This document shows, piece by piece, positions 1 to 64,000 of a stretch of 64,000 nucleotides of DNA. The stretch is taken from positions 62,001 through 126,000 of the forward strand of contig NW_027506876.1 in the NCBI RefSeq assembly GCF_052324685.1. The letters run 5' to 3'. Below the pieces are notes generated by a model, which was given only the letters and a program-made list of their open reading frames with translations, ran no database searches and was not told the origin of the DNA. The stretch is from Brachyhypopomus gauderio. Its lineage: Eukaryota > Chordata > Actinopteri > Gymnotiformes > Hypopomidae. The first letter of the stretch is position 1, and the number at the start of each line of letters is the position of its first letter. The translations under genes and the position numbers were made by a program.

Positions 1-116
1 ATCAAAATGAAACTCAGTGGAAACTTACCTAGTGCTTTGTCATGTTGTCTCCCAACATAGAAAACTCATGCTACTCGGTTGATTTGTAGACGTTTGTGTT
101 ATAAAGGTATCGAATG

Positions 117-193
117 ATGTCAACATTTGGTGTTTGGATGTGAATGTTTTGTCTTAAAGCAGAGTAGACCTACTGCTTAGCCATTGTTGACAT
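117..193 (+). repeat. Nested inverted repeat upstream of each tRNA (representative)
   Basis: Perfect 9-bp arms ATGTCAACA (117-125) and TGTTGACAT (185-193) enclose a second near-palindrome at 157-178, AAGC-AG-AGTAG-AC-CTACT-GCTT. Together they could form a cruciform or a two-tier hairpin in RNA, ending about 68 bp before the tRNA. The structure recurs in nearly all units. Units of the CAC-C39 subtype with GATATCAACA weaken both arms. No known family is recognised. Confidence 0.6.
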
Positions 194-260
194 GATGACT
201 TCCATGCTCTGATTGTATGAGGAAACGCCCACGAGAGATGTGCCCATTCAGACATGCAAG

Positions 261-333
261 GTTTCTGTAGTGTAGTGGTCATCACGTTCGCCTCACACGT
301 GAAAGGTCCCTAGTTCGATACCAGGCAGAAACA
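261..333 (+). tRNA. tRNA-Val-CAC: tRNA-Val(CAC), class CAC-GU/A52
   Basis: Acceptor GTTTCTG/CAGAAAC pairs fully and A73 is present. The D loop has GG, and the anticodon loop CTCACAC gives CAC at 294-296. The anticodon stem has a G30:U40 wobble and the T stem an A52.C62 mismatch. The two weak spots may lower stability. First unit of HOR-A cycle 1. Confidence 0.85.
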
Positions 334-358
334 TGCTTCTTGATAGAATGACATACAC

Positions 359-377
359 ACCACTGCTGTTTAGTGGT
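359..377 (+). repeat. Short hairpin 3' of each tRNA (representative)
   Basis: ACCACT-GCTGTTT-AGTGGT forms a 6-bp stem with a 7-nt loop starting about 26 nt after the tRNA 3' end. Copies with AGTGAT lose one pair; those reading AGCACT with AGTGAT also have a mismatch. It might affect 3' trailer folding or polymerase pausing, but there is no T run after it. Confidence 0.5.
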
Positions 378-658
378 TTGTTGCCAGTGTAAAGGCTATC
401 GGCGAACTCTTCCCTTTAGATCCTCAAAGTGAGCTGTCAGTCTCATGTGATCGATACAGGAATGTTCTAAATCGCCATGTACCTTGATAGCAGTACTAAT
501 GCAGCCAGTTCAATCAAAATGAAACTCAGTGGAAACTTACCTAGTGCTTTGTCATGTTGTCTCCCAACATAGAAAACTCATGCTACTCGGTTGATTTGTA
601 GACGTTTGTGTTATAAAGGGATCGAATGATGTCAACATTTGGTGTTTGGATGTGAATG

Positions 659-662
659 TTTT
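659..662 (+). terminator. First T4 run downstream of tRNA 1 (weak candidate)
   Basis: Reading from the tRNA at 261-333, the first TTTT is here, 326 nt past the tRNA end and 111 nt before the next tRNA. The same GAATGTTTTGTC site occurs in each unit. Canonical Pol III terminators normally lie within a few tens of bases, so this would give a ~400-nt precursor if it is used. Only an interrupted TTCTT lies close to the tRNA (3 nt downstream). Confidence 0.3.
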
Positions 663-772
663 GTCTTAAAGCAGAGTAGACCTACTGCTTAGCCATTGTT
701 GACATGATGACTTCCATGCTCTGATTGTATGAGGAAACGCCTACGAGAGATGTGCCCATTCAGACATGCAAG

Positions 773-845
773 GTTTCTGTAGTGTAGTGGTCATCACGTT
801 CGCCACACACGCGAAAGGTTCCTGGTTCGATACCAGGCAGAAACA
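773..845 (+). tRNA. tRNA-Val-CAC: tRNA-Val(CAC), class CAC-A33, possibly non-functional
   Basis: Stems are intact (TTCGC/GCGAA, CCTGG/CCAGG), but the loop reads CACACAC, so U33, needed for the U-turn, is A. C48 is T, weakening the usual 15:48 pair. Anticodon remains CAC. Decoding ability is doubtful. Confidence 0.75.
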
Positions 846-1282
846 TGCTTCTTGATAGAATGACAAACACCACTGCTGTTTAGTGGTTTGTTGCCAGTGT
901 AAAGGCTATCGGGGAGCTCTTCCCTTTAGATCCTCAAAGTGAGCTGTCAGTCTCATGTGATCGATACAGCAATGTTCTAATTCGCCATGTACCTTGATAG
1001 CAGTACTAATGCAGCCAGTTCAATCAAAATGAAACTCAGTGGAAACTTACCTAGTGCTTTGTCATGTTGTCTCCCAACGTAGAAAACTCATGCTACTTGG
1101 TTGATTTGTAGACGTTTGTGTTATAAAGGGATCGAATGATGTCAACATTTGGTGTTTGGATGTGAATGTTTTGTCTTAAAGCAGAGTAGACCTACTGCTT
1201 AGCCATTGTTGACATGATGACTTCCATGCTCTGATTGTATGAGGAAACGCCCACGAGAGATGTGCCCATTCAGACATGCAAG

Positions 1283-1355
1283 GTTTCTGTAGTGTAGTGG
1301 TCATCACGTTCGCCTCACACGTGAAAGGTCCCTAGTTCGATACCAGGCAGAAACA
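1283..1355 (+). tRNA. tRNA-Val-CAC: tRNA-Val(CAC), class CAC-GU/A52
   Basis: Same tRNA sequence as the copy at 261: G30:U40 and A52.C62. Third unit of HOR-A cycle 1; its spacer has CTACTTGG in place of CTACTCGG. Confidence 0.85.
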
Positions 1356-1794
1356 TGCTTCTTGATAGAATGACATACACACCACTGCTGTTTAGTGGTT
1401 TGTTGCCAGTGTAAAGGCTATCGGCGAACTCTTCCCTTTAGATCCTCAAAGTGAGCTGTCAGTCTCATGTGATCGATACAGGAATGTTCTAAATCGCCAT
1501 GTACCTTGATAGCAGTACTAATGCAGCCAGTTCAATCAAAATGAAACTCAGTGGAAACTTACCTAGTGCTTTGTCATGTTGTCTCCCAACATAGAAAACT
1601 CATGCTACTCGGTTGATTTGTAGACGTTTGTGTTATAAAGGGATCGAATGATGTCAACATTTGGTGTTTGGATGTGAATGTTTTGTCTTAAAGCAGAGTA
1701 GACCTACTGCTTAGCCATTGTTGACATGATGACTTCCATGCTCTGATTGTATGAGGAAACGCCTACGAGAGATGTGCCCATTCAGACATGCAAG

Positions 1795-1867
1795 GTTTCT
1801 GTAGTGTAGTGGTCATCATGTTCGCCACACACGCGAAAGGTTCCTGGTTCGATACCAGGCAGAAACA
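1795..1867 (+). tRNA. tRNA-Val-CAC: tRNA-Val(CAC), class CAC-A33 with C25T
   Basis: Loop CACACAC (A33) and T48 as at 773, plus C25 to T, which turns the 10:25 pair of the D stem into G:U. Weaker candidate for function than its sisters. Confidence 0.7.
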
Positions 1868-2304
1868 TGCTTCTTGATAGAATGACAAACACCACTGCTG
1901 TTTAGTGGTTTGTTGCCAGTGTAAAGGCTACCGGGGAGCTCTTCCCTTTAGATCCTCAAAGTGAGCTGTCAGTCTCATGTGATCGATACAGCAATGTTCT
2001 AATTCGCCATGTACCTTGATAGCAGTACTAATGCAGCCAGTTCAATCAAAATGAAACTCAGTGGAAACTTACCTAGTGCTTTGTCATGTTGTCTCCCAAC
2101 GTAGAAAACTCATGCTACTCGGTTGATTTGTAGACGTTTGTGTTATAAAGGGATCGAATGATGTCAACATTTGGTGTTTGGATGTGAATGTTTTGTCTTA
2201 AAGCAGAGTAGACCTACTGCTTAGCCATTGTTGACATGATGACTTCCATGCTCTGATAGAATGAGGAAACGCCCACGAGAGATGTGCCCGTTCAGACAAG
2301 CAAG

Positions 2305-2377
2305 GTTTCTGTAGTGTAGTGGTCATCACGTTCGCCTCACACGCAAAAGGTCCCTGGTTCGATACCAGGCAGAAACA
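2305..2377 (+). tRNA. tRNA-Val-CAC: tRNA-Val(CAC), class CAC-A41
   Basis: Loop CTCACAC with U33 and CAC. The anticodon stem is TTCGC/GCAAA, with a C29.A41 mismatch in its middle. T arm CCTGG/CCAGG is intact. First of 25 copies in this class. Confidence 0.87.
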
Positions 2378-2814
2378 TGCTTCTTGATAGAATGACAAAC
2401 AGCACTGCTGTTTAGTGATTTGTTGCCAGTGTAAAGGCTATCGGGGAGCGCTTGCCTTTAGATCCTCAAAGTGAGCTGTCAGTCTCATGTGATCGATACA
2501 GGAATGTTCTAAATCGCCATGTACCTTGATAGCAGTACTAATGCAGCCGGTTCAATCAAAATTACACTCCGTGGAAACTTACCTAGTGCTTTGTCATGTT
2601 GTCTCCCAACGTAGAAAACTCATGCTACTCGGTTGATTTGTAGACGTTTGTGTTATAAAGGGATCGAATGATGTCAACATTTGGTGTTTGGATGTGAATG
2701 TTTTGTCTTAAATCAGAGTAGACCTACTGCTTAGCCATTGTTGACATGATGACTTCCATGCTCTGATTGTATGAGGAAACGCCCACGAGAGATGTGCCCA
2801 TTCAGACTGGCAAG

Positions 2815-2887
2815 GTTTCTGTAGTGTAGTGGTCATCACGTTCGCCTAACACGCGAAAGGTCCCTGGTTCAATACCAGGCAGAAACA
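2815..2887 (+). tRNA. tRNA-Val-AAC: tRNA-Val(AAC), class AAC-A57
   Basis: Loop CTAACAC puts AAC at 34-36, expected to become IAC and read GUU, GUC and GUA. All stems pair as in animal tRNA-Val. The T loop is TTCAATA (A57, still a purine). Structurally among the soundest copies. Its spacer has AAATCAGAG. Confidence 0.95.
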
Positions 2888-3326
2888 TGCTTCTTGATAG
2901 AATTACAAACACACCACTGCTGTTTAGTGGTTTGTTGCCAGTGTAAAGGCTATCGGGGAGCTCTTCCCTTTAGATCCTCAAAGTGAGCTCTCAGTCTCAT
3001 GTGATCGATACAGGAATGTTCTAAATCGCCATGTACCTTGATAGCAGTACAAATGCAATCGGTTCAATCAAAATTACACTCCGTGGAAACTTACCTAGTG
3101 CTTTGTCATGTTGTCTCCCAACATAGAAAACTCATGCTACTCGGTTGATTTGTAGACGTTTGTGTTATAAAGGTATCGAATGATGTCAACATTTGGTGTT
3201 TGGATGTGAATGTTTTGTCTTAAAGCAGAGTAGACCTACTGCTTAGCCATTGTTGACATGATGACTTCCATGCTTTTATTGTATGAGGAAATGCCCACGA
3301 GAGATGTGCCCATTCAGACAAGCAAG

Positions 3327-3399
3327 GTTTCTGTAGTGTAGTGGTCATCACGTTTGCCTCACACCCGAAAGGTCCCTGGTTCGATACCAGGCAGAAACA
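3327..3399 (+). tRNA. tRNA-Val-CAC: tRNA-Val(CAC), class CAC-C39
   Basis: Anticodon stem TTTGC/CCGAA has U29:G41 and a C31.C39 mismatch next to the loop CTCACAC. T arm is intact. The leader contains CTTTTATTG. The following spacer lacks 5 bp (AATGGGTTC). Confidence 0.85.
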
Positions 3400-3831
3400 T
3401 GCTTCTTGATAGAATGACAAACACCACTGCTGTTTAGTGGTTTGTTGCCAGTGTAAAGGCTATCGGGAAGCTATTCCCTTTAGATCCTCAAAGTGAGCTG
3501 TCAGTCTCATGTGATCGATACAGGAATGTTCTAAATCGCCATGTACCTTGATAGCAGTACTAATGGGTTCAATCAAAATTATACTCAGTGGAAACTTACC
3601 TAGTGCTTTGTCATGTTGTCTCCCAACATAGAAAACTCATGCTACTTGGTTGATTTGTAGACGTTTGTGTTATAAAGGGATCGAATGATGTCAACATTTG
3701 GGGTTTGGATGTGAATGTTTTGTCTTAAAGCAGAGTAGACCTACTGCTTAGCCATTGTTGACATGATGACTTCCATGCTCTGATTGTATGAGGAAACGCC
3801 CACGAGAGATGTGCCCATTCAGACATGCAAG

Positions 3832-3904
3832 GTTTCTGTAGTGTAGTGGTCATCACGTTCGCCTCACACGTGAAAGGTCCCTAGTTCGATACCAGGCAGA
3901 AACA
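3832..3904 (+). tRNA. tRNA-Val-CAC: tRNA-Val(CAC), class CAC-GU/A52
   Basis: G30:U40 and A52.C62 as at 261. First unit of HOR-A cycle 2, preceded by the ATTATACTC junction and TTGGGGTTTGG. Confidence 0.85.
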
Positions 3905-4343
3905 TGCTTCTTGATAGAATGACATACACACCACTGCTGTTTAGTGGTTTGTTGCCAGTGTAAAGGCTATCGGCGAACTCTTCCCTTTAGATCCTCAAAG
4001 TGAGCTGTCAGTCTCATGTGATCGATACAGGAATGTTCTAAATCGCCATGTACCTTGATAGCAGTACTAATGCAGCCAGTTCAATCAAAATGAAACTCAG
4101 TGGAAACTTACCTAGTGCTTTGTCATGTTGTCTCCCAACATAGAAAACTCATGCTACTCGGTTGATTTGTAGACGTTTGTGTTATAAAGGGATCGAATGA
4201 TGTCAACATTTGGTGTTTGGATGTGAATGTTTTGTCTTAAAGCAGAGTAGACCTACTGCTTAGCCATTGTTGACATGATGACTTCCATGCTCTGATTGTA
4301 TGAGGAAACGCCTACGAGAGATGTGCCCATTCAGACATGCAAG

Positions 4344-4416
4344 GTTTCTGTAGTGTAGTGGTCATCACGTTCGCCACACACGCGAAAGGTTCCTGGTTCG
4401 ATACCAGGCAGAAACA
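4344..4416 (+). tRNA. tRNA-Val-CAC: tRNA-Val(CAC), class CAC-A33
   Basis: Loop CACACAC with A33, and T48. The flank just after the tRNA is TTCTTCTTG in place of TGCTTCTTG, a mark shared with the copy at 7915. Confidence 0.75.
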
Positions 4417-4853
4417 TTCTTCTTGATAGAATGACAAACACCACTGCTGTTTAGTGGTTTGTTGCCAGTGTAAAGGCTATCGGGGAGCTCTTCCCTTTAG
4501 ATCCTCAAAGTGAGCTGTCAGTCTCATGTGATCGATACAGCAATGTTCTAATTCGCCATGTACCTTGATAGCAGTACTAATGCAGCCAGTTCAATCAAAA
4601 TGAAACTCAGTGGAAACTTACCTAGTGCTTTGTCATGTTGTCTCCCAACGTAGAAAACTCATGCTACTTGGTTGATTTGTAGACGTTTGTGTTATAAAGG
4701 GATCGAATGATGTCAACATTTGGTGTTTGGATGTGAATGTTTTGTCTTAAAGCAGAGTAGACCTACTGCTTAGCCATTGTTGACATGATGACTTCCATGC
4801 TCTGATTGTATGAGGAAACGCCCACGAGAGATGTGCCCATTCAGACATGCAAG

Positions 4854-4926
4854 GTTTCTGTAGTGTAGTGGTCATCACGTTCGCCTCACACGTGAAAGGT
4901 CCCTAGTTCGATACCAGGCAGAAACA
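4854..4926 (+). tRNA. tRNA-Val-CAC: tRNA-Val(CAC), class CAC-GU/A52
   Basis: Identical in the tRNA to 1283, its HOR-A partner 3571 bp upstream: G30:U40, A52.C62. Confidence 0.85.
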
Positions 4927-5365
4927 TGCTTCTTGATAGAATGACATACACACCACTGCTGTTTAGTGGTTTGTTGCCAGTGTAAAGGCTATCGGCGAAC
5001 TCTTCCCTTTAGATCCTCAAAGTGAGCTGTCAGTCTCATGTGATCGATACAGGAATGTTCTAAATCGCCATGTACCTTGATAGCAGTACTAATGCAGCCA
5101 GTTCAATCAAAATGAAACTCAGTGGAAACTTACCTAGTGCTTTGTCATGTTGTCTCCCAACATAGAAAACTCATGCTACTCGGTTGATTTGTAGACGTTT
5201 GTGTTATAAAGGGATCGAATGATGTCAACATTTGGTGTTTGGATGTGAATGTTTTGTCTTAAAGCAGAGTAGACCTACTGCTTAGCCATTGTTGACATGA
5301 TGACTTCCATGCTCTGATTGTATGAGGAAACGCCTACGAGAGATGTGCCCATTCAGACATGCAAG

Positions 5366-5438
5366 GTTTCTGTAGTGTAGTGGTCATCATGTTCGCCACA
5401 CACGCGAAAGGTTCCTGGTTCGATACCAGGCAGAAACA
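5366..5438 (+). tRNA. tRNA-Val-CAC: tRNA-Val(CAC), class CAC-A33 with C25T
   Basis: Shares A33, T48 and C25T with its partner at 1795. The third cycle's partner at 8937 lacks C25T. Confidence 0.7.
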
Positions 5439-5875
5439 TGCTTCTTGATAGAATGACAAACACCACTGCTGTTTAGTGGTTTGTTGCCAGTGTAAAGGCT
5501 ATCGGGGAGCTCTTCCCTTTAGATCCTCAAAGTGAGCTGTCAGTCTCATGTGATCGATACAGCAATGTTCTAATTCGCCATGTACCTTGATAGCAGTACT
5601 AATGCAGCCAGTTCAATCAAAATGAAACTCAGTGGAAACTTACCTAGTGCTTTGTCATGTTGTCTCCCAACGTAGAAAACTCATGCTACTCGGTTGATTT
5701 GTAGACGTTTGTGTTATAAAGGGATCGAATGATGTCAACATTTGGTGTTTGGATGTGAATGTTTTGTCTTAAAGCAGAGTAGACCTACTGCTTAGCCATT
5801 GTTGACATGATGACTTCCATGCTCTGATAGAATGAGGAAACGCCCACGAGAGATGTGCCCGTTCAGACAAGCAAG

Positions 5876-5948
5876 GTTTCTGTAGTGTAGTGGTCATCAC
5901 GTTCGCCTCACACGCAAAAGGTCCCTGGTTCGATACCAGGCAGAAACA
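5876..5948 (+). tRNA. tRNA-Val-CAC: tRNA-Val(CAC), class CAC-A41
   Basis: C29.A41 mismatch, otherwise paired. HOR-A cycle 2, unit 5. Confidence 0.87.
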
Positions 5949-6385
5949 TGCTTCTTGATAGAATGACAAACAGCACTGCTGTTTAGTGATTTGTTGCCAG
6001 TGTAAAGGCTATCGGGGAGCGCTTGCCTTTAGATCCTCAAAGTGAGCTGTCAGTCTCATGTGATCGATACAGGAATGTTCTAAATCGCCATGTACCTTGA
6101 TAGCAGTACTAATGCAGCCGGTTCAATCAAAATTACACTCCGTGGAAACTTACCTAGTGCTTTGTCATGTTGTCTCCCAACGTAGAAAACTCATGCTACT
6201 CGGTTGATTTGTAGACGTTTGTGTTATAAAGGGATCGAATGATGTCAACATTTGGTGTTTGGATGTGAATGTTTTGTCTTAAATCAGAGTAGACCTACTG
6301 CTTAGCCATTGTTGACATGATGACTTCCATGCTCTGATTGTATGAGGAAACGCCCACGAGAGATGTGCCCATTCAGACTGGCAAG

Positions 6386-6458
6386 GTTTCTGTAGTGTAG
6401 TGGTCATCACGTTCGCCTAACACGCGAAAGGTCCCTGGTTCAATACCAGGCAGAAACA
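6386..6458 (+). tRNA. tRNA-Val-AAC: tRNA-Val(AAC), class AAC-A57
   Basis: Loop CTAACAC, fully paired stems, T loop TTCAATA. HOR-A cycle 2, unit 6. Confidence 0.95.
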
Positions 6459-6897
6459 TGCTTCTTGATAGAATTACAAACACACCACTGCTGTTTAGTG
6501 GTTTGTTGCCAGTGTAAAGGCTATCGGGGAGCTCTTCCCTTTAGATCCTCAAAGTGAGCTCTCAGTCTCATGTGATCGATACAGGAATGTTCTAAATCGC
6601 CATGTACCTTGATAGCAGTACAAATGCAATCGGTTCAATCAAAATTACACTCCGTGGAAACTTACCTAGTGCTTTGTCATGTTGTCTCCCAACATAGAAA
6701 ACTCATGCTACTCGGTTGATTTGTAGACGTTTGTGTTATAAAGGTATCGAATGATGTCAACATTTGGTGTTTGGATGTGAATGTTTTGTCTTAAAGCAGA
6801 GTAGACCTACTGCTTAGCCATTGTTGACATGATGACTTCCATGCTTTTATTGTATGAGGAAATGCCCACGAGAGATGTGCCCATTCAGACAAGCAAG

Positions 6898-6970
6898 GTT
6901 TCTGTAGTGTAGTGGTCATCACGTTTGCCTCACACCCGAAAGGTCCCTGGTTCGATACCAGGCAGAAACA
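6898..6970 (+). tRNA. tRNA-Val-CAC: tRNA-Val(CAC), class CAC-C39
   Basis: U29:G41 and C31.C39. Followed by the same 5-bp spacer deletion as the copy at 3327. Confidence 0.85.
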
Positions 6971-7402
6971 TGCTTCTTGATAGAATGACAAACACCACTG
7001 CTGTTTAGTGGTTTGTTGCCAGTGTAAAGGCTATCGGGAAGCTATTCCCTTTAGATCCTCAAAGTGAGCTGTCAGTCTCATGTGATCGATACAGGAATGT
7101 TCTAAATCGCCATGTACCTTGATAGCAGTACTAATGGGTTCAATCAAAATTATACTCAGTGGAAACTTACCTAGTGCTTTGTCATGTTGTCTCCCAACAT
7201 AGAAAACTCATGCTACTTGGTTGATTTGTAGACGTTTGTGTTATAAAGGGATCGAATGATGTCAACATTTGGGGTTTGGATGTGAATGTTTTGTCTTAAA
7301 GCAGAGTAGACCTACTGCTTAGCCATTGTTGACATGATGACTTCCATGCTCTGATTGTATGAGGAAACGCCCACGAGAGATGTGCCCATTCAGACATGCA
7401 AG

Positions 7403-18638: not shown

Positions 18639-18710
18639 GTTTCTGTAGTGTAGTGGTCATCACGTTTGCCTCACACCCGAAAGGTCCTGGTTCGATACCA
18701 GGCAGAAACA
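18639..18710 (+). tRNA. tRNA-Val-CAC: tRNA-Val(CAC), class CAC-C39, one base short (72 nt)
   Basis: AAGGTCCTGG replaces AAGGTCCCTGG, so one C is missing where the variable loop meets the T stem. The T stem can still form with a 4-nt variable loop, but position 48 is lost. It also has the class mismatch C31.C39. The loss accounts for the 2041-bp HOR-B spacing. Confidence 0.8.
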
Positions 18711-25804: not shown

Positions 25805-25837
25805 TCATCACGTTCGCCTCACACGCGAAAGGTCCCT

Positions 25838-27780: not shown

Positions 27781-27940
27781 TCTGATTGTATGAGGAAACG
27801 CCTACGAGAGATGTGCCCATTCAGACATGCAAGGTTTCTGTAGTGTAGTGGTCATCACGTTCTGATTGTATGAGGAAACGCCTACGAGAGATGTGCCCAT
27901 TCAGACATGCAAGGTTTCTGTAGTGTAGTGGTCATCACGT
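27781..27940 (+). repeat. 80-bp direct tandem duplication
   Basis: Bases 27781-27860 are repeated immediately at 27861-27940 with no difference that I can see. The duplicated piece runs from the CTCTGATTG leader into the anticodon stem of the tRNA and leaves one half tRNA followed by a full one. It occurs once in the window and lengthens this unit to about 592 bp. Confidence 0.93.
27834..27861 (+). pseudogene. 5' half of a tRNA-Val gene
   Basis: The acceptor 5' strand, D arm and first bases of the anticodon stem are present, then the sequence jumps back to the leader because of the 80-bp duplication. It keeps an A box but has no anticodon, T arm or B box of its own. It cannot make a tRNA; transcription from it is not expected without the B box of the next copy 80 bp away. 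Confidence 0.93.
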
Positions 27941-27986
27941 TTGCCACACACGCGAAAGGTTCCTGGTTCGATACCAGGCAGAAACA
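27914..27986 (+). tRNA. tRNA-Val-CAC: tRNA-Val(CAC), class CAC-A33 with C29T
   Basis: Complete copy after the 80-bp duplication. A33 and T48, plus U29:G41 wobble (CACGTTTGCCACAC). Confidence 0.72.
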
Positions 27987-37103: not shown

Positions 37104-37176
37104 GTTTCTGTAGTGTAGTGGTCATCACGTTCGCCTCACACGCGAAAGGTCCCTGGTTCGATACCAGGCAGAAACA
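37104..37176 (+). tRNA. tRNA-Val-CAC: tRNA-Val(CAC), class CAC-wt
   Basis: All stems sound; HOR-C cycle 1, unit 1. Confidence 0.96.
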
Positions 37177-37614
37177 TGCTTCTTGATAGAATGACATACA
37201 CACCACTGCTGTTTAGTGGTTGTTGCCAGTGTAAAGGCTATCGGCGAGCTCTTCCCTTTAGATCCTCAAAGTGAGCTGTCAGTCTCATGTGATCGATACA
37301 GGAATGTTCTAAATCGCCATGTACCTTGATAGCAGTACTAATGCAGCCAGTTCAATCAAAATGAAACTCAGTGGAAACTTACCTAGTGCTTTGTCATGTT
37401 GTCTCCCAACATAGAAATCTCATGCTACTCGGTTGATTTGTAGACGTTTGTGTTATAAAGGTATCGAATGATGTCAACATTTGGTGTTTGGATGTGAATG
37501 TTTTGTCTTAAAGCAGAGTAGACCTACTGCTTAGCCATTGTTGACATGATGACTTCCATGCTCTGATTGTATGAGGAAACGCCCACGAGAGATGTGCCCA
37601 TTCAGACAAGCAAG

Positions 37615-37687
37615 GTTTCTGTAGTGTAGTGGTCATCACGTTCGCCTCACACGCGAAAGGTCCCTAGTTCGATACCAGGCAGAAACA
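37615..37687 (+). tRNA. tRNA-Val-CAC: tRNA-Val(CAC), class CAC-A52
   Basis: A52.C62 only; 3' flank TGCTCCTTG replaces TGCTTCTTG, removing the TTCTT motif. Confidence 0.88.
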
Positions 37688-38124
37688 TGCTCCTTGATAG
37701 AATGACAAACACCACTGCTGTTTAGTGATTTGTTGCCAGTGTAAAGGCTATCGGGGAGCTCTTCCCTTTAGATCCTCAAAGTGAGCTCTCAGTCTCATGT
37801 GATCGATACAGGAATGTTCTAAATCGCCATGTACCTTGATAGCAGTACAAATGCAATCGGTTCAATCAAAATTACACTCCGTGGAAACTTACCTAGTGCT
37901 TTGTCATGTTGTCTCCCAACATAGAAAACTCATGCTACTCGGTTGATTTGTAGACGTTTGTGTTATAAAGGTATCGAATGATGTCAACATTTGGTGTTTG
38001 GATGTGAATGTTTTGTCTTAAAGCAGAGTAGACCTACTGCTTAGCCATTGTTGACATGATGACTTCCATGCTTTTATTGTATGAGGAAATGCCCACGAGA
38101 GATGTGCCCATTCAGACAAGCAAG

Positions 38125-38197
38125 GTTTCTGTAGTGTAGTGGTCATCACGTTTGCCTCACACCCGAAAGGTCCCTGGTTCGATACCAGGCAGAAACA
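38125..38197 (+). tRNA. tRNA-Val-CAC: tRNA-Val(CAC), class CAC-C39
   Basis: U29:G41 and C31.C39; CTTTTATTG leader. Confidence 0.85.
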
Positions 38198-38634
38198 TGC
38201 TTCTTGATAGAATGACAAACACCACTGCTGTTTAGTGGTTTGTTGCCAGTGTAAAGGCTATCGGGGAGCTCTTCCCTTTAGATCCTCAAAGTGAGCTGTC
38301 AGTCTCATGTGATCGATACAGGAATGTTCTAAATCGCCATGTACCTTGATAGCAGTACTAATGCAGCCGGTTCAATCAAAATTACACTCAGTGGAAACTT
38401 ACCTAGTGCTTTGTCATGTTGTCTCCCAACATAGAAAACTCATGCTACTCGGTTGATTTGTAGACGTTTGTGTTATAAAGGTATCGAATGATATCAACAT
38501 TTGGTGTTTGGATGTGAATGTTTTGTCTTAAAGCAGAGTAGACTTACTGCTTAGCCATTGTTGACATGATGACTTCCATGCTCTGATAGAATGAGGAAAC
38601 GCCCACGAGAGATGTGACCGTTCAGACAAGCAAG

Positions 38635-38707
38635 GTTTCTGTAGTGTAGTGGTCATCACGTTTGCCTCACACCCGAAAGGTCCCTGGTTCGATACCAGGC
38701 AGAAACA
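38635..38707 (+). tRNA. tRNA-Val-CAC: tRNA-Val(CAC), class CAC-C39, GATAGAATG leader
   Basis: U29:G41 and C31.C39; downstream GGGAGTGCTTG shared with 43739. Confidence 0.85.
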
Positions 38708-39144
38708 TGCTTCTTGATAGAATGACAAACACCACTGCTGTTTAGTGGTTTGTTGCCAGTGTAAAGGCTATCGGGGAGTGCTTGCCTTTAGATCCTCAAA
38801 GTGAGCTGTCAGTCTCATGTGATCGATACAGGAATGTTCTAAATCGCCATGTACCTTGATAGCAGTACTAATGCAGCCGGTTCAATCAAAATTACACTCC
38901 GTGGAAACTTACCTAGTGCTTTGTCATGTTGTCTCCCAACATAGAAAACTCATGCTACTCGGTTGATTTGTAGACGTTTGTCTTATAAAGGTATCGAATG
39001 ATGTCAACATTTGGTGTTTCGATGTGAATGTTTTGTCTTAAAGCAGAGTAGACCTACTGCTTAGCCATTGTTGACATGATGACTTCCATGCTCTGATAGA
39101 ATGAGGAAACGCCCACGAGAGATGTGCCCATTCAGACAAGCAAG

Positions 39145-39217
39145 GTTTCTGTAGTGTAGTGGTCATCACGTTCGCCTCACACGCGAAAGGTCCCTGGTTC
39201 GATACCAGGCAGAAACA
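39145..39217 (+). tRNA. tRNA-Val-CAC: tRNA-Val(CAC), class CAC-wt
   Basis: All stems sound; upstream GTGTTTCGATG ties the unit's 5' half to the subtype seen before 31998. Confidence 0.96.
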
Positions 39218-39655
39218 TGCTTCTTGATAGAATGACATACACACCACTGCTGTTTAGTGGTTGTTGCCAGTGTAAAGGCTATCGGCGAGCTCTTCCCTTT
39301 AGATCCTCAAAGTGAGCTGTCAGTCTCATGTGATCGATACAGGAATGTTCTAAATCGCCATGTACCTTGATAGCAGTACTAATGCAGCCAGTTCAATCAA
39401 AATGAAACTCAGTGGAAACTTACCTAGTGCTTTGTCATGTTGTCTCCCAACATAGAAAACTCATGCTACTCGGTTGATTTGTAGACGTTTGTGTTATAAA
39501 GGTATCGAATGATGTCAACATTTGGTGTTTGGATGTGAATGTTTTGTCTTAAAGCAGAGTAGACCTACTGCTTAGCCATTGTTGACATGATGACTTCCAT
39601 GCTCTGATTGTATGAGGAAACGCCCACGAGAGATGTGCCCATTCAGACACGCAAG

Positions 39656-39728
39656 GTTTCTGTAGTGTAGTGGTCATCACGTTCGCCTCACACACGAAAG
39701 GTCCCTAGTTCGATACCAGGCAGAAACA
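39656..39728 (+). tRNA. tRNA-Val-CAC: tRNA-Val(CAC), class CAC-A52 with G39A
   Basis: Loop-closing pair is C31.A39 (CTCACACACGAA) and the T stem has A52.C62. 3' flank is TGCTCCTTG. Confidence 0.82.
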
Positions 39729-40165
39729 TGCTCCTTGATAGAATGACAAACACCACTGCTGTTTAGTGATTTGTTGCCAGTGTAAAGGCTATCGGGGAGC
39801 GCTTGCCTTTAGATCCTCAAAGTGAGCTGTCAGTCTCATGTGATCGATACAGGAATGTTCTAAATCGCCATGTACCTTGATAGCAGTACTAATGCAGCCG
39901 GTTCAATCAAAATTACACTCCGTGGAAACTTACCTAGTGCTTTGTCATGTTGTCTCCCAACGTAGAAAACTCATGCTACTCGGTTGATTTGTAGACGTTT
40001 GTGTTATAAAGGGATCGAATGATGTCAACATTTGGGGTTTGGATGTGAATGTTTTGTCTTAAAGCAGAGTAGACCTACTGCTTAGCCATTGTTGACATGA
40101 TGACTTCCATGCTCTGATTGTATGAGGAAACGCCCACGAGAGATGTGCCCATTCAGACTGGCAAG

Positions 40166-40238
40166 GTTTCTGTAGTGTAGTGGTCATCACGTTCGCCTAA
40201 CACGCGAAAGGTCCCTGGTTCAATACCAGGCAGAAACA
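40166..40238 (+). tRNA. tRNA-Val-AAC: tRNA-Val(AAC), class AAC-A57
   Basis: CTAACAC loop, paired stems; HOR-C cycle 1, unit 7. Confidence 0.95.
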
Positions 40239-40677
40239 TGCTTCTTGATAGAATTACAAACACACCACTGCTGTTTAGTGGTTTGTTGCCAGTGTAAAGG
40301 CTATCGGGGAGCTCTTCCCTTTAGATCCTCAAAGTGAGCTCTCAGTCTCATGTGATCGATACAGGAATGTTCTAAATCGCCATGTACCTTGATAGCAGTA
40401 CAAATGCAATCGGTTCAATCAAAATTACACTCCGTGGAAACTTACCTAGTGCTTTGTCATGTTGTCTCCCAACATAGAAAACTCATGCTACTCGGTTGAT
40501 TTGTAGACGTTTGTGTTATAAAGGTATCGAATGATGTCAACATTTGGTGTTTGGATGTGAATGTTTTGTCTTAAAGCAGAGTAGACCTACTGCTTAGCCA
40601 TTGTTGACATGATGACTTCCATGCTTTTATTGTATGAGGAAATGCCCACGAGAGATGTGCCCATTCAGACAAGCAAG

Positions 40678-40750
40678 GTTTCTGTAGTGTAGTGGTCATC
40701 ACGTTTGCCTCACACCCGAAAGGTCCCTGGTTCGATACCAGGCAGAAACA
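40678..40750 (+). tRNA. tRNA-Val-CAC: tRNA-Val(CAC), class CAC-C39
   Basis: U29:G41 and C31.C39; HOR-C cycle 1, unit 8. Confidence 0.85.
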
Positions 40751-41187
40751 TGCTTCTTGATAGAATGACAAACACCACTGCTGTTTAGTGGTTTGTTGCC
40801 AGTGTAAAGGCTATCGGGGAGCTCTTCCCTTTAGATCCTCAAAGTGAGCTGTCAGTCTCATGTGATCGATACAGGAATGTTCTAAATCGCCATGTACCTT
40901 GATAGCAGTACTAATGCAGCCGGTTCAATCAAAATTACACTCAGTGGAAACTTACCTAGTGCTTTGTCATGTTGTCTCCCAACATAGAAAACTCATGCTA
41001 CTCGGTTGATTTGTAGACGTTTGTGTTATAAAGGTATCGAATGATATCAACATTTGGTGTTTGGATGTGAATGTTTTGTCTTAAAGCAGAGTAGACTTAC
41101 TGCTTAGCCATTGTTGACATGATGACTTCCATGCTCTGATTGTATGAGGAAACGCCCACGAGAGATGTGCCCATTCAGACTGGCAAG

Positions 41188-41260
41188 GTTTCTGTAGTGT
41201 AGTGGTCATCACGTTCGCCTAACACGCGAAAGGTCCCTGGTTCAATACCAGGCAGAAACA
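41188..41260 (+). tRNA. tRNA-Val-AAC: tRNA-Val(AAC), class AAC-A57 in a hybrid unit
   Basis: CTAACAC loop and sound stems. Upstream spacer has GATATCAACA and GACTTACTG of the CAC-C39 subtype, switching to AAC-type leader before CTCTGATTG. Confidence 0.95.
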
Positions 41261-41697
41261 TGCTTCTTGATAGAATTACAAACACCACTGCTGTTTAGTG
41301 GTTTGTTGCCAGTGTAAAGGCTATCGGGGAGCTCTTCCCTTTAGATCCTCAAAGTGAGCTCTCAGTCTCATGTGATCGATACAGGAATGTTCTAAATCGC
41401 CATGTACCTTGATAGCAGTACAAATGCAATCGGTTCAATCAAAATTACACTCCGTGGAAACTTACCTAGTGCTTTGTCATGTTGTCTCCCAACATAGAAA
41501 ACTCATGCTACTCGGTTGATTTGTAGACGTTTGTGTTATAAAGGTATCGAATGATGTCAACATTTGGTGTTTGGATGTGAATGTTTTGTCTTAAAGCAGA
41601 GTAGACCTACTGCTTAGCCATTGTTGACATGATGACTTCCATGCTTTTATTGTATGAGGAAATGCCCACGAGAGATGTGCCCATTCAGACAAGCAAG

Positions 41698-41770
41698 GTT
41701 TCTGTAGTGTAGTGGTCATCACGTTTGCCTCACACCCGAAAGGTCCCTGGTTCGATACCAGGCAGAAACA
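41698..41770 (+). tRNA. tRNA-Val-CAC: tRNA-Val(CAC), class CAC-C39 in a hybrid unit
   Basis: U29:G41 and C31.C39, followed by a CAC-A41-type spacer (CAGCACTG, CTCAATGTG). The switch lies at the HOR-C cycle boundary. Confidence 0.85.
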
Positions 41771-42207
41771 TGCTTCTTGATAGAATGACAAACAGCACTG
41801 CTGTTTAGTGATTTGTTGCCAGTGTAAAGGCTATCGGGGAGCGCTTGCCTTTAGATCCTCAATGTGAGCTGTCAGTCTCATGTGATCGATACAGGAATGT
41901 TCTAAATCGCCATGTACCTTGATAGCAGTACTAATGCAGCCGGTTCAATCAAAATTACACTCCGTGGAAACTTACCTAGTGCTTTGTCATGTTGTCTCCC
42001 AACGTAGAAAACTCATGCTACTCGGTTGATTTGTAGACGTTTGTGTTATAAAGGTATCGAATGATGTCAACATTTGGTGTTTGGATGTGAATGTTTTGTC
42101 TTAAAGCAGAGTAGACCTACTGCTTAGCCATTGTTGACATGATGACTTCCATGCTCTGATAGAATGAGGAAACGCCCACGAGAGATGTGCCCATTCAGAC
42201 AAGCAAG

Positions 42208-58544: not shown

Positions 58545-58617
58545 GTTTCTGTAGTGTAGTGGTCATCACGTTCGCCTAACACGCGAAAGGTCCCTGGTTC
58601 AATACCAGGCAGAAACA
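58545..58617 (+). tRNA. tRNA-Val-AAC: tRNA-Val(AAC), class AAC-A57 in a hybrid unit
   Basis: CTAACAC loop, sound stems; partner of both 54970 (3575 bp) and 46292 (12253 bp). Its ACAAATGCAATC 3' spacer follows 46292. Confidence 0.95.
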
Positions 58618-59054
58618 TGCTTCTTGATAGAATTACAAACACCACTGCTGTTTAGTGGTTTGTTGCCAGTGTAAAGGCTATCGGGGAGCTCTTCCCTTTA
58701 GATCCTCAAAGTGAGCTCTCAGTCTCATGTGATCGATACAGGAATGTTCTAAATCGCCATGTACCTTGATAGCAGTACAAATGCAATCGGTTCAATCAAA
58801 ATTACACTCCGTGGAAACTTACCTAGTGCTTTGTCATGTTGTCTCCCAACATAGAAAACTCATGCTACTCGGTTGATTTGTAGACGTTTGTGTTATAAAG
58901 GTATCGAATGATGTCAACATTTGGTGTTTGGATGTGAATGTTTTGTCTTAAAGCAGAGTAGACCTACTGCTTAGCCATTGTTGACATGATGACTTCCATG
59001 CTTTTATTGTATGAGGAAATGCCCACGAGAGATGTGCCCATTCAGACAAGCAAG

Positions 59055-59127
59055 GTTTCTGTAGTGTAGTGGTCATCACGTTTGCCTCACACCCGAAAGG
59101 TCCCTGGTTCGATACCAGGCAGAAACA
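59055..59127 (+). tRNA. tRNA-Val-CAC: tRNA-Val(CAC), class CAC-C39
   Basis: U29:G41 and C31.C39; partner of 46802. Confidence 0.85.
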
Positions 59128-59564
59128 TGCTTCTTGATAGAATGACAAACACCACTGCTGTTTAGTGGTTTGTTGCCAGTGTAAAGGCTATCGGGGAGCT
59201 CTTCCCTTTAGATCCTCAAAGTGAGCTGTCAGTCTCATGTGATCGATACAGGAATGTTCTAAATCGCCATGTACCTTGATAGCAGTACTAATGCAGCCGG
59301 TTCAATCAAAATTACACTCAGTGGAAACTTACCTAGTGCTTTGTCATGTTGTCTCCCAACATAGAAAACTCATGCTACTCGGTTGATTTGTAGACGTTTG
59401 TGTTATAAAGGTATCGAATGATATCAACATTTGGTGTTTGGATGTGAATGTTTTGTCTTAAAGCAGAGTAGACTTACTGCTTAGCCATTGTTGACATGAT
59501 GACTTCCATGCTCTGATAGAATGAGGAAACGCCCACGAGAGATGTGACCGTTCAGACAAGCAAG

Positions 59565-59637
59565 GTTTCTGTAGTGTAGTGGTCATCACGTTTGCCTCAC
59601 ACCCGAAAGGTCCCTGGTTCGATACCAGGCAGAAACA
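59565..59637 (+). tRNA. tRNA-Val-CAC: tRNA-Val(CAC), class CAC-C39, GATAGAATG leader
   Basis: U29:G41 and C31.C39; partner of 47312. Confidence 0.85.
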
Positions 59638-60074
59638 TGCTTCTTGATAGAATGACAAACACCACTGCTGTTTAGTGGTTTGTTGCCAGTGTAAAGGCTA
59701 TCGGGGAGCGCTTGCCTTTAGATCCTCAAAGTGAGCTGTCAGTCTCATGTGATCGATACAGGAATGTTCTAAATCGCCATGTACCTTGATAGCAGTACTA
59801 ATGCAGCCGGTTCAATCAAAATTACACTCCGTGGAAACTTACCTAGTGCTTTGTCATGTTGTCTCCCAACATAGAAAACTCATGCTACTCGGTTGATTTG
59901 TAGACGTTTGTCTTATAAAGGTATCGAATGATGTCAACATTTGGTGTTTCGATGTGAATGTTTTGTCTTAAAGCAGAGTAGACCTACTGCTTAACCATTG
60001 TTGACATGATGACTTCCATGCTCTGATAGAATGAGGAAACGCCCACGAGAGATGTGCCCGTTCAGACAAGCAAG

Positions 60075-60147
60075 GTTTCTGTAGTGTAGTGGTCATCACG
60101 TTCGCCTCACACGCAAAAGGTCCCTGGTTCGATACCAGGCAGAAACA
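60075..60147 (+). tRNA. tRNA-Val-CAC: tRNA-Val(CAC), class CAC-A41
   Basis: C29.A41; CTTAACC upstream, partner of 47822. Confidence 0.87.
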
Positions 60148-60584
60148 TGCTTCTTGATAGAATGACAAAAACCACTGCTGTTTAGTGATTTGTTGCCAGT
60201 GTAAAGGCTATCGGGGAGCGCTTGCCTTTAGATCCTCAAAGTGAGCTGTCAGTCTCATGTGATCGATACAGGAATGTTCTAAATCGCCATGTACCTTGAT
60301 AACAGTACTAATGCAGCCGGTTCAATCAAAATTACACTCCGTGGAAACTTACCTAGTGCTTTGTCATGTTGTCTCCCAACATAGAAAACTCATGCTACTC
60401 GGTTGATTTGTAGACGTTTGTGTTATAAAGGTATCGAATGATGTCAACATTTGGTGTTTGGATGTGAATGTTTTGTCTTAAAGCAGAGTAGACCTACTGC
60501 TTAGCCATTGTTGACATGATGACTTCCATGCTCTGATAGAATGAGGAAACGCCCACGAGAGATGTGACCGTTCAGACAAGCAAG

Positions 60585-60657
60585 GTTTCTGTAGTGTAGT
60601 GGTCATCACGTTTGCCTCACACCCGAAAGGTCCCTGGTTCGATGCCAGGCAGAAACA
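60585..60657 (+). tRNA. tRNA-Val-CAC: tRNA-Val(CAC), class CAC-C39 with A60G
   Basis: U29:G41 and C31.C39, plus T loop TTCGATG, absent from its partner at 48332 and so later than the 12253-bp duplication. Confidence 0.84.
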
Positions 60658-61094
60658 TGCTTCTTGATAGAATGACAAACACCACTGCTGTTTAGTGGTT
60701 TGTTGCCAGTGTAAAGGCTATCGGGGAGCGCTTGCCTTTAGATCCTCAAAGTGAGCTGTCAGTCTCATGTGATCGATACAGGAATGTTCTAAATCGCCAT
60801 GTACCTTGATAGCAGTACTAATGCAGCCGGTTCAATCAAAATTACACTCCGTGGAAACTTACCTAGTGCTTTGTCATGTTGTCTCCCAACATAGAAAACT
60901 CATGCTACTCGGTTGATTTGTAGACGTTTGTGTTATAAAGGTATCGAATGATGTCAACATTTGGTGTTTGGATGTGAATGTTTTGTCTTAAAGCAGAGTA
61001 GACCTACTGCTTAGCCATTGTTGACATGATGACTTCCATGCTCTGATAGAATGAGGAAACGCCCACGAGAGATGTGCCCATTCAGACAAGCAAG

Positions 61095-61167
61095 GTTTCT
61101 GTAGTGTAGTGGTCATCACGTTCGCCTAACACGCGAAAGGTCCCTGGTTCGATACCAGGCAGAAACA
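61095..61167 (+). tRNA. tRNA-Val-AAC: tRNA-Val(AAC), class AAC-G57
   Basis: CTAACAC loop, paired stems, TTCGATA; partner of 48842, sharing the ATCGACATG spacer mark. Confidence 0.95.
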
Positions 61168-61605
61168 TGCTTCTTGATAGAATGACATACACACCACTGC
61201 TGTTTAGTGGTTGTTGCCAGTGTAAAGGCTATCAGCGAGCTCTTCCCTTTAGATCCTCAAAGTGAGCTGTCAGTCTCATGTGATCGATACAGGAATGTTC
61301 TAAATCGACATGTACCTTGATAGCAGTACTAATGCAGCCAGTTCAATCAAAATGAAACTCAGTGGAAACTTACCTAGTGCTTTGTCATGTTGTCTCCCAA
61401 CATAGAAAACTCATGCTACTCGGTTGATTTGTAGACGTTTGTGTTATAAAGGTATCGAATGATGTCAACATTTGGTGTTTGGATGTGAATGTTTTGTCTT
61501 AAAGCAGAGTAGACCTACTGCTTAGCCATTGTTGACATGATGACTTCCATGCTCTGATTGTATGAGGAAACGCCCACGAGAGATGTGCCCATTCAGACAT
61601 GCAAG

Positions 61606-61678
61606 GTTTCTGTAGTGTAGTGGTCATCACGTTCGCCTCACACGCGAAAGGTCCCTAGTTCGATACCAGGCAGAAACA
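61606..61678 (+). tRNA. tRNA-Val-CAC: tRNA-Val(CAC), class CAC-A52
   Basis: A52.C62 only; partner of 49353. Confidence 0.88.
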
Positions 61679-62117
61679 TGCTTCTTGATAGAATGACATA
61701 CACACCACTGCTGTTTAGTGGTTTGTTGCCAGTGTAAAGGCTATCGGCAAACTCTTCCCTTTAGATCCTCAAAGTGAGCTGTCAGTCTCATGTGATTGAT
61801 ACAGGAATGTTCTAAATCGCCATGTACCTTGATAGCAGTACTAATGCAGCCAGTTCAATCAAAATGAAACTCAGTGGAAACTTACCTAGTGCTTTGTCAT
61901 GTTGTCTCCCAACATAGAAAACTCATGCTACTCGGTTGATTTGTAGACGTTTGTGTTATAAAGGGATCGAATGATGTCAACATTTGGTGTTTGGATGTGA
62001 ATGTTTTGTCTTAAAGCAAAGTAGACCTACTGCTTAGCCATTGTTGACATGATGACTTCCATGCTATGATAGAATGAGGAAACGCCCACGAGAGATGTGC
62101 CCGTTCAGACAAGCAAG

Positions 62118-62190
62118 GTTTCTGTAGTGTAGTGGTCATCACGTTCGCCTCACACGCAAAAGGTCCCTGGTTCGATACCAGGCAGAAACA
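62118..62190 (+). tRNA. tRNA-Val-CAC: tRNA-Val(CAC), class CAC-A41, CTATGATAG leader
   Basis: C29.A41; partner of 49865. Confidence 0.87.
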
Positions 62191-62627
62191 TGCTTCTTGA
62201 TAGAATGACAAACACCACTGCTGTTTAGTGATTTGTTGCCAGTGTAAAGGCTATCGGGGAGCGCTTGCCTTTAGATCCTCAAAGTGAGCTGTCAGTCTCA
62301 TGTGATCGATACAGGAATGTTCTAAATCGCCATGTACCTTGATAGCAGTACTAATGCAGCCGGTTCAATCAAAATTACACTCCGTGGAAACTTACCTAGT
62401 GCTTTGTCATGTTGTCTCCCAACGTAGAAAACTCATGCTACTCGGTTGATTTGTAGACGTTTGTGTTATAAAGGTATCGAATGATATCAACATTTGGTGT
62501 TTGGATGTGAATGTTTTGTCTTAAAGCAGAGTAGACTTACTGCTTAGCCATTGTTGACATGATGACTTCCATGCTCTGATAGAATGAGGAAACGCCCACG
62601 AGAGATGTGACCGTTCAGACAAGCAAG

Positions 62628-62700
62628 GTTTCTGTAGTGTAGTGGTCATCACGTTTGCCTCACACCCGAAAGGTCCCTGGTTCGATACCAGGCAGAAACA
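62628..62700 (+). tRNA. tRNA-Val-CAC: tRNA-Val(CAC), class CAC-C39, GATAGAATG leader
   Basis: U29:G41 and C31.C39; partner of 50375 with the same hybrid spacer. Confidence 0.85.
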
Positions 62701-63137
62701 TGCTTCTTGATAGAATGACAAACACCACTGCTGTTTAGTGGTTTGTTGCCAGTGTAAAGGCTATCGGGGAGCGCTTGCCTTTAGATCCTCAAAGTGAGCT
62801 GTCAGTCTCATGTGATCGATACAGGAATGTTCTAAATCGCCATGTACCTTGATAGCAGTACTAATGCAGCCGGTTCAATCAAAATTACACTCCGTGGAAA
62901 CTTACCTAGTGCTTTGTCATGTTGTCTCCCAACATAGAAAACTCATGCTACTCGGTTGATTTGTAGACGTTTGTCTTATAAAGGTATCGAATGATGTCAA
63001 CATTTGGTGTTTCGATGTGAATGTTTTGTCTTAAAGCAGAGTAGACCTACTGCTTAACCATTGTTGACATGATGACTTCCATGCTCTGATAGAATGAGGA
63101 AACGCCCACGAGAGATGTGCCCGTTCAGACAAGCAAG

Positions 63138-63210
63138 GTTTCTGTAGTGTAGTGGTCATCACGTTCGCCTCACACGCAAAAGGTCCCTGGTTCGATACCA
63201 GGCAGAAACA
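63138..63210 (+). tRNA. tRNA-Val-CAC: tRNA-Val(CAC), class CAC-A41
   Basis: C29.A41; partner of 50885. Confidence 0.87.
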
Positions 63211-63647
63211 TGCTTCTTGATAGAATGACAAAAACCACTGCTGTTTAGTGATTTGTTGCCAGTGTAAAGGCTATCGGGGAGCGCTTGCCTTTAGATCCTC
63301 AAAGTGAGCTGTCAGTCTCATGTGATCGATACAGGAATGTTCTAAATCGCCATGTACCTTGATAACAGTACTAATGCAGCCGGTTCAATCAAAATTACAC
63401 TCCGTGGAAACTTACCTAGTGCTTTGTCATGTTGTCTCCCAACATAGAAAACTCATGCTACTCGGTTGATTTGTAGACGTTTGTGTTATAAAGGTATCGA
63501 ATGATGTCAACATTTGGTGTTTGGATGTGAATGTTTTGTCTTAAAGCAGAGTAGACCTACTGCTTAGCCATTGTTGACATGATGACTTCCATGCTCTGAT
63601 AGAATGAGGAAACGCCCACGAGAGATGTGACCGTTCAGACAAGCAAG

Positions 63648-63720
63648 GTTTCTGTAGTGTAGTGGTCATCACGTTTGCCTCACACCCGAAAGGTCCCTGG
63701 TTCGATACCAGGCAGAAACA
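63648..63720 (+). tRNA. tRNA-Val-CAC: tRNA-Val(CAC), class CAC-C39, GATAGAATG leader
   Basis: U29:G41 and C31.C39; last tRNA in the window. The remaining 280 bp are spacer, ending in TTTGTCTTATA, so the next unit probably continues with a CAC-A41 copy. Confidence 0.85.
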
Positions 63721-64000
63721 TGCTTCTTGATAGAATGACAAACACCACTGCTGTTTAGTGGTTTGTTGCCAGTGTAAAGGCTATCGGGGAGCGCTTGCCT
63801 TTAGATCCTCAAAGTGAGCTGTCAGTCTCATGTGATCGATACAGGAATGTTCTAAATCGCCATGTACCTTGATAGCAGTACTAATGCAGCCGGTTCAATC
63901 AAAATTACACTTCGTGGAAACTTACCTAGTGCTTTGTCATGTTGTCTCCCAACATAGAAAACTCATGCTACTCGGTTGATTTGTAGACGTTTGTCTTATA

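Follow-up and report, generated by a model that had tools for sequence, protein, structure and literature searches.

A tRNA-Val gene turned macrosatellite in Brachyhypopomus gauderio, possibly a maternal tRNA reserve

Why would 64,000 bases of a fish genome hold a single kind of transfer RNA (tRNA) gene over and over, and could such an array still deliver tRNA? The stretch that raises this question, here called the window, comprises 64,000 bases of contig NW_027506876.1 of Brachyhypopomus gauderio (C32:62001-126000; feature coordinates are those of the window unless a contig, written C plus its number, is named). Our preferred reading, held with evenly balanced confidence and drawing on analogy with zebrafish and Xenopus, is that a once-functional tRNA-Val gene became a macrosatellite that may act as a maternal, oocyte-type reserve of tRNA-Val. 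In kind, the array falls among the repeat-encoded tRNA genes known from fish, to which it adds one gene per unit, three zoned anticodons on one body, free decay of the copies and loss of cytosine-guanine dinucleotides (CpG).

ARAGORN identified 125 tRNA genes in the window, all tRNA-Val and all on the plus strand, in agreement with the initial annotation, which had counted 125 co-oriented genes at a pitch of ~510 bp. Over 124 units the pitch was 510 bp (76 units), 512 (32), 511 (12), 505 (2), 509 (1) or 592 (1), with one tRNA per ~510-bp unit throughout; a unit of several isotypes, such as the oocyte-type unit of Xenopus, was not seen. Six genes in 1-3000, the part scanned with Rfam, scored 55 to 64.8 bits as tRNA (RF00005, gathering score 29). 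Guanine-cytosine (GC) content is flat across the window at 0.425-0.435 in 2-kb steps, and blastn with the unit returned plus-strand matches only and left no uncovered stretch of at least 15 bp. The initial claims of a single isotype, no other gene and no edge therefore hold inside the window; beyond it the array ends or thins. Likewise, the copies are one family in that all are tRNA-Val, but they carry two anticodons (99 CAC, 26 AAC) and 19 different tRNA sequences, and most are damaged. The 124 units include 65 distinct ones. The basic elements are as follows.

1..64000, plus strand: tRNA-Val macrosatellite stretch with 125 tRNA genes and no edge inside the window (ARAGORN, blastn)
261..772, plus strand: one 512-bp unit, from one tRNA start to the next
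261..333, plus strand: tRNA-Val(CAC) gene of 73 nt, a copy with a 52A:62C mismatch
334..341, plus strand: TGCTTCTT, immediately 3′ of the tRNA
18639..18710, plus strand: 72-nt tRNA copy with a one-base deletion
27781..27941, plus strand: perfect 80-bp tandem duplication that copies the start of a tRNA together with its 5′ flank

The last of these produces the single 592-bp unit, in which the extra 5′ tRNA piece precedes the full gene. Three other identities were considered and rejected. A hidden protein gene is ruled out by the longest stop-to-stop frame, which is 79 amino acids (aa). Rfam matches to Pseudomon-groES and sR43 in 1-3000 fell far below their gathering scores and were taken as chance. 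A tRNA-derived short interspersed element does not fit either, as the copies lie head to tail rather than dispersed, and a search with the unit returned C32 only among the matches listed (5 of 227 candidates scored).

What produced so regular an array? The simple 510-bp tandem first described is right as to pitch but overlooks a higher-order periodicity. The best lag between similar units shifts along C32, from 7 units at 62-72 kb to 4 at 72-87 kb, 10 at 97-110 kb and 24 at 110-126 kb, and two of these repeats can be delimited in the window.

261..3831, plus strand: first 7-unit higher-order repeat (3,571 bp)
3832..7402, plus strand: second copy of the 7-unit repeat, sharing five of its seven units exactly with the first
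37104..42207, plus strand: 10-unit higher-order repeat, of which the first nine units recur from 42208 (unit classes, lag 10)

We aligned the 372 full units of C32:1-256000, leaving out shorter and broken ones, and found 236 distinct sequences. Neighbouring full units differ at a mean of 13.6 sites, versus 19.7 over all pairs, and 209 of the 372 have an identical twin. The array thus combines head-to-tail units, higher-order repeats and local homogenisation, as expected of a macrosatellite, and the shifting lags together with the twins form the pattern that unequal crossing-over at several scales would be expected to leave.

The initial annotation had proposed mapping the unit on the assembly, and this mapping placed the array on both C32 and C96, well beyond the window. 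The genome comprises 796.5 Mb in 840 contigs; C32 (2,839,961 bp) and C96 (621,222 bp) both begin inside the array, which includes the very first bases of C32. Unit sequence makes up 96% of C32:1-256000, with no minus-strand match and 10,234 bp uncovered in four inserts, and 443 copies in this region hold the tRNA start. Beyond 256 kb, 22 short stretches of C32 were sampled: eight contained array tRNA (258, 262, 266, 270, 275, 350, 420 and 460 kb), the one at 500 kb contained unit pieces without tRNA, and 13 contained no array, including those at 280, 285, 290, 295 and 300 kb. On C96 the array occupies the minus strand in eight of 11 samples (1 to 350 kb) and is absent from those at 450, 550 and 620 kb. 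Two complete units in C96:1-1100 match units at C32:22-47 kb with 99.6 and 99.4% identity; for the remaining full C96 units in the comparison the figure is 97.6-99.0%. Because the units at the start of C96 are nearest to those at C32:22-47 kb, the left ends of the two contigs probably adjoin and would then belong to a single array that the assembly split.

We counted exact matches to a 28-base pattern taken from the 5′ part of the tRNA, leaving base 20a free: the genome holds 685 on the forward strand and 664 on the reverse (reversed control, 0), and the first 100, the ones listed, all lie on C32. In C32:1-256000 the pattern was counted 373 times against the 443 copies holding the tRNA start, and if that share holds elsewhere we estimate ~1,600 copies and ~0.8 Mb for the whole array. 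A search of viral_contigs with an exact 28-mer revealed no relative. Longer units occur at C32 ~180-276 kb and 420-460 kb, where unit bases 1-440 are followed by 244-510 and the tRNA genes are spaced ~710 and 908 bp apart. Could the assembly have inflated a few units to hundreds? That both array contigs begin inside the array would suit such an artefact, but 236 distinct units among 372, together with point variants, indels and four different inserts that mark places in the array, make it the least probable of the explanations considered here.

Is the array type the tRNA-Val of this genome at large? We searched for scattered tRNA-Val genes with two patterns, which would miss other bodies such as Val-TAC. 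The exact 5′ pattern with T at base 20a matched at C4 and in two units of the C96 array, three places in all, and the T-arm pattern with one mismatch allowed matched five, namely C4, C1, C16 twice and C19. The C1, C16 and C19 genes are tRNA-Val(AAC); their 73-nt bodies are identical and their flanks differ. The remaining gene is the following.

C4 ~29,944,004-29,944,076, minus strand: scattered tRNA-Val(CAC)

We take this C4 gene to be equal to its human counterpart. All five scattered genes found with these two patterns differ from the array type, which is therefore an isodecoder unlike the scattered genes of the same isotype, and the array marks named initially, C20a and U6:A67, do distinguish it from the C4 CAC gene and the four AAC genes. 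Ordinary cells probably draw on the scattered, conserved genes of the other isodecoder.

The clean CAC array type and the C4 gene differ at six positions (6, 20a, 51, 59, 63 and 67). Four of these are the two sides of pairs 6:67 and 51:63, where C-G stands against T-A in compensated form, and the other two lie in loops. Within the array, by comparison, no compensated double change was seen at any of the 20 stem pairs. Because compensated pairs separate the array type from the C4 gene and none arose within the array, the founder appears to have been functional; if the C4 gene is a near relative of that founder, selection on tRNA structure would have acted before the array began to drift. The 3′ flank of the array gene (TGCTTCTTGATAGAA, 334-348) is similar to the 5′ flank of the C4 gene when the latter is reverse-complemented (equalled or bettered in 6 of 1,000 shuffles, in one of four comparisons), a weak hint that the tRNA came to lie within the unit by inversion.

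How did one tRNA body come to carry several anticodons? In C32:1-256000 ARAGORN reported 442 tRNAs: 197 CAC, 167 AAC, 76 TAC, one GAC and one called Phe-AAA. The commonest anticodon is TAC at 0-50 kb, CAC at 50-160 kb and AAC beyond, and base 34 forms 122 runs along the 372 full units, against a mean of 229.6 and a minimum of 202 in 2,000 shuffles. The commonest clean AAC, CAC and TAC copies differ from one another at base 34 only. Since the bodies of the scattered AAC genes differ from those of the array, the array AAC copies were not derived from the four found genes as such. Base 34 has the highest minor frequency of any site (0.51); it changed 17 times on one tree, ninth of 18 common variant sites, and 42 times on the other, where it ranks first of 28 (the next site has 29). 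It is conceivable, though we think it unlikely, that the array acts as a nursery for the anticodon mix: one body would have gained the three usual eukaryotic valine anticodons via base 34, and unequal exchange would sort and resize the CAC, AAC and TAC zones, setting a maternal mix that may vary between individuals, with the somatic pool fixed by the scattered genes. Were this so, satellite dynamics would determine the anticodon mix of maternal tRNA-Val.

Does selection maintain individual copies? Non-CpG changes were counted on the 372 full units by building a tree from one half of the spacer and scoring changes on the rest, which gives two values for each region. The tRNA accumulated 1.40 and 2.11 changes per site without base 34, and 1.65 and 2.75 with it; the spacer half outside the tree gave 1.78 and 2.20, and spacer blocks of 73 bp ranged over 0.98-3.36 and 1.57-2.42. 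The acceptor stem (0.73 and 1.33) and the D-arm with the A box (0.94 and 1.00) are on the low side, within or near the range of the spacer blocks and on few sites, and the anticodon and T arms are not low. Leaving out base 34, the tRNA shows 56 distinct changes; 27 of them disrupt a stem pair or alter an invariant base, where 28.1 (standard deviation (sd) 2.8) are expected for random changes of the same classes.

We scored as a lesion any broken stem pair or changed U33, beyond a 13:22 mismatch common to all copies; positions 13 and 22 are unpaired in normal tRNA-Val. Of the 372 full units, 141 are free of structural lesions, and distinct units have a mean multiplicity of 1.48 if clean and 1.64 if damaged (P 0.11). 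Single copies of the array thus evolve like the spacer, with no visible policing by selection, as the unit of a macrosatellite does when it evolves without visible constraint. This weakens the option, raised initially, of a plain dosage amplification, as the copies drift freely and many are damaged. If ordinary translation needed so many tRNA-Val genes, the coverage of the three usual valine isoacceptors in C32:1-256000 (197 CAC, 167 AAC and 76 TAC) would make sense; but single copies lack visible constraint, the zoning and repeats look like drift, and there are five scattered genes, four of which share the same body but not the same flanks, so we consider amplification under selection for dosage very improbable.

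The internal promoter elements have nonetheless largely persisted: the A box is kept in 345 of the 372 full units, the B box in 305 and both in 291. A TFIIIC-bound or heterochromatic block that serves as a boundary or architectural domain, independent of tRNA output, would be expected to keep such boxes, and a boundary role has been suggested for the human 1q23.3 tRNA repeat in the excerpted account of PMC4041453. Yet the T arm, which holds the B box, gives no sign of added constraint (1.93 and 3.00 changes per site, versus 1.78 and 2.20 in the spacer), and the lower rates of the acceptor stem and A box stay within or near the spacer-block range, on few sites. A chromatin element thus seems improbable.

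CpG sites may bear on the methylation of the array. A CpG transition is present at all 10 CpG sites of the tRNA and at 15 of 20 in the spacer, compared with transitions at 22 of 63 non-CpG sites of the tRNA and 81 of 419 of the spacer. On the trees, changes per CpG site number 9.4 and 12.1 in the tRNA and 4.3 and 7.8 in the spacer. The excess of CpG transitions suggests that the array, tRNA included, is methylated in the germ line. The silenced satellite proposed at the outset gains indirect support from the same excess.

Could transcripts of the array end properly? TTCTT can act as a weak terminator for RNA polymerase III (Pol III). Directly 3′ of the gene, TGCTTCTT is present in 326 of the 372 full units, and the consensus T4 run lies 324 nt downstream of the array gene. 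A T4 run starts no more than 5 nt from the gene at C4, at both C16 genes and at C19, and ~19 nt away at C1; it lies within 11 nt in the Cys, C71-type Tyr and Glu, C7 and C15 Thr and C15 Lys genes sampled. A near T4 is also missing elsewhere, in the C71-type Lys genes (first at 57 nt or none within 60) and in two genes near C4:23.03 Mb (none within at least 56 nt).

The array also harbours four inserts in C32:1-256000.

C32:34284-36765: 2,482-bp element with TAGTGTTG ends and an 8-bp target duplication, inside the anticodon arm of one array tRNA
C32:155459-157581: 2,123-bp element with CCCTTAT ends, inserted at a TTAA site
C32:194455-197165: 2,711-bp insert with a 673-aa open frame
C32:203860-206777: 2,918-bp insert, unnamed

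An Rfam search of the first returned no match, and we read this insert as presumably hAT-like; the 673-aa frame is presumably a non-LTR (long terminal repeat) reverse transcriptase.

Several of these results weigh against a maternal reserve. Lesions affect 92 of the 124 window copies of 73 nt, leaving 32 clean. Among the 435 tRNAs of 73 nt in C32:1-256000 (seven of other length were left out of the count), 131 of 161 AAC and 30 of 76 TAC copies are clean, and only 22 of 196 CAC copies are. We also list here the clean share of distinct full units (60 of 71 AAC, 20 of 49 TAC, 14 of 115 CAC), which in itself speaks against pure drift; the surplus of clean AAC may reflect young amplification or selection on AAC. 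Within 60 nt of the gene, T4 is absent from all 125 full units starting in the window and present in 26 of the 372 in C32:1-256000. Finally, among the matches listed (47 of 24,554 candidates scored), 5S genes lie on C14, C28 and C469 and none on C32 or C96, which gives no sign of the grouping with other maternal RNA genes known from zebrafish chromosome 4.

The main rival to a maternal reserve is accordingly an inert satellite, descended from a tRNA gene and yielding no usable tRNA in any tissue, whose size and content reflect unequal exchange and drift alone. It would account for the spacer-like evolution of the copies, the damage to 92 of 124 in the window, the lack of a nearby T4 terminator, the CpG decay and the toleration of four inserts in C32:1-256000, one of them inside a tRNA. 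Less readily explained are the intact A and B boxes of 291 of the 372 full units, the 131 of 161 clean AAC copies (which young amplification can explain), the other tRNA arrays of this genome, some with T4 runs close to their genes, and the repeat-derived isodecoders in zebrafish eggs described in the excerpt of PMC11417395. We regard inertness as a serious possibility, short of probable.

For the maternal reserve that we prefer, we envisage the following course. A tRNA-Val gene once kept functional would have come to lie in a 510-bp unit, and unequal crossing-over probably multiplied this unit to a block of ~0.8 Mb; the tandem units and higher-order repeats are directly visible, and the mechanism and total size are our reconstruction. 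Base 34 changed inside the array, and the CAC, AAC and TAC copies of one body lie in zones, presumably through local exchange. The copies mutate like the spacer, with damaged units multiplied as often as intact ones, as the counts show. The array would stay closed in somatic chromatin and become accessible in growing oocytes or early embryos, where the intact share of so many copies could supply bulk tRNA-Val, as the zebrafish and Xenopus systems would lead one to expect.

The Val array is one of several tRNA arrays in this genome. An array on C71 has a unit of ~971 bp in which ARAGORN reports Leu-TAG, Glu-CTC on the other strand and Lys-TTT, with similar genes at C1:52113001-52115000; we take the 'Leu-TAG' to be an intron-bearing Tyr gene. 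Repeats of tRNA-Thr(TGT), often spaced ~1,219 bp, occur at C7:24156421-24286984 and C7:23218898, and their body is unlike that of the single C15 Thr gene; the single C15 Lys and Thr genes are presumably equal to the human ones. Genes for 5S ribosomal RNA (rRNA) are spaced ~1,087 bp apart at C14:8569299-8626107. The small contigs C777, C790, C811 and C812 carry mitochondrial COX1 and further broken copies, and are perhaps concatenated mitochondrial reads. The vertebrate mitochondrial code and our reading of the COX1, COX2 and ND2 frames accord with a teleost, as does the observed-to-expected CpG ratio of 0.56 in pooled C32 samples.

The locus is a clear example from nature of how a functional RNA gene can become satellite DNA with its scattered relatives conserved. 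As T6, A67, T51, A63 and T59 separate array tRNA from scattered tRNA, an origin of egg tRNA from decaying repeats is directly testable. It also illustrates that damaged copies can dominate predicted tRNA gene counts, as with the 92 of 124 in the window.

How, then, does the array compare with known systems? No tRNA-Val array like this one was found among the literature matches listed (titles and abstract openings, with subscription papers mostly outside their scope), and the array may still be described. The Ser-Tyr-Tyr (SYY) cluster of Arabidopsis, with two isotypes, is smaller. It resembles the present array in its tandem tRNA genes, variant and pseudogene copies and methylation; methylation is inferred here, and the excerpt of PMC12308677 reports an array that carries methylation and is silent in most tissues but expressed in root-cap cells, a special expression shown there. 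The human 1q23.3 variable-number tandem repeat is likewise a tRNA macrosatellite of near-identical units; as excerpted in PMC4041453, it has a GC-rich unit of 7.3 kb with five tRNA genes on both strands and 9-43 units per allele, whereas the unit here is 0.51 kb, 43% GC, with one gene on one strand. In Xenopus, the tandem tRNA genes specific to oocytes are marked by 5-formylcytosine (5fC) and Pol III (PMC11500080, in excerpt). The likeness lies in tandem tRNA units tied to cytosine modification; a single gene per unit sets the present array apart, and its use in oocytes or early embryos is proposed by analogy.

The closest parallels come from zebrafish, and although the initial annotation called this very large single-isotype tRNA satellite unusual, the general kind is already known there, as far as the excerpted papers go. 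Highly repetitive regions encode the zebrafish isodecoders present in eggs, and scattered genes encode the late ones (PMC11417395). Most zebrafish tRNA genes lie in a heterochromatic block of chromosome 4 together with maternal 5S and small nuclear RNA (snRNA) genes, their maternal status being unsettled at the time of that report (PMC11075544); a further study places 60% of predicted tRNA genes on heterochromatic chromosome 4 and finds that copy number does not predict tRNA level (PMC11574265). Repeat-borne 5S genes follow the same plan, with 2,330 maternal genes versus 12 somatic ones (PMC5513064, in excerpt): one type is present in very many copies and the other in few, for 5S RNA rather than tRNA and with expression shown. 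As judged from the same zebrafish excerpts, what the present array shares with the repeat-encoded tRNA genes, many of them on the long arm of chromosome 4, is highly repetitive tRNA genes with another isodecoder in scattered ones (PMC11417395, PMC11075544, PMC11574265); it differs in having one gene per 510-bp unit, one isotype and three anticodons, and in being known from its sequence alone.

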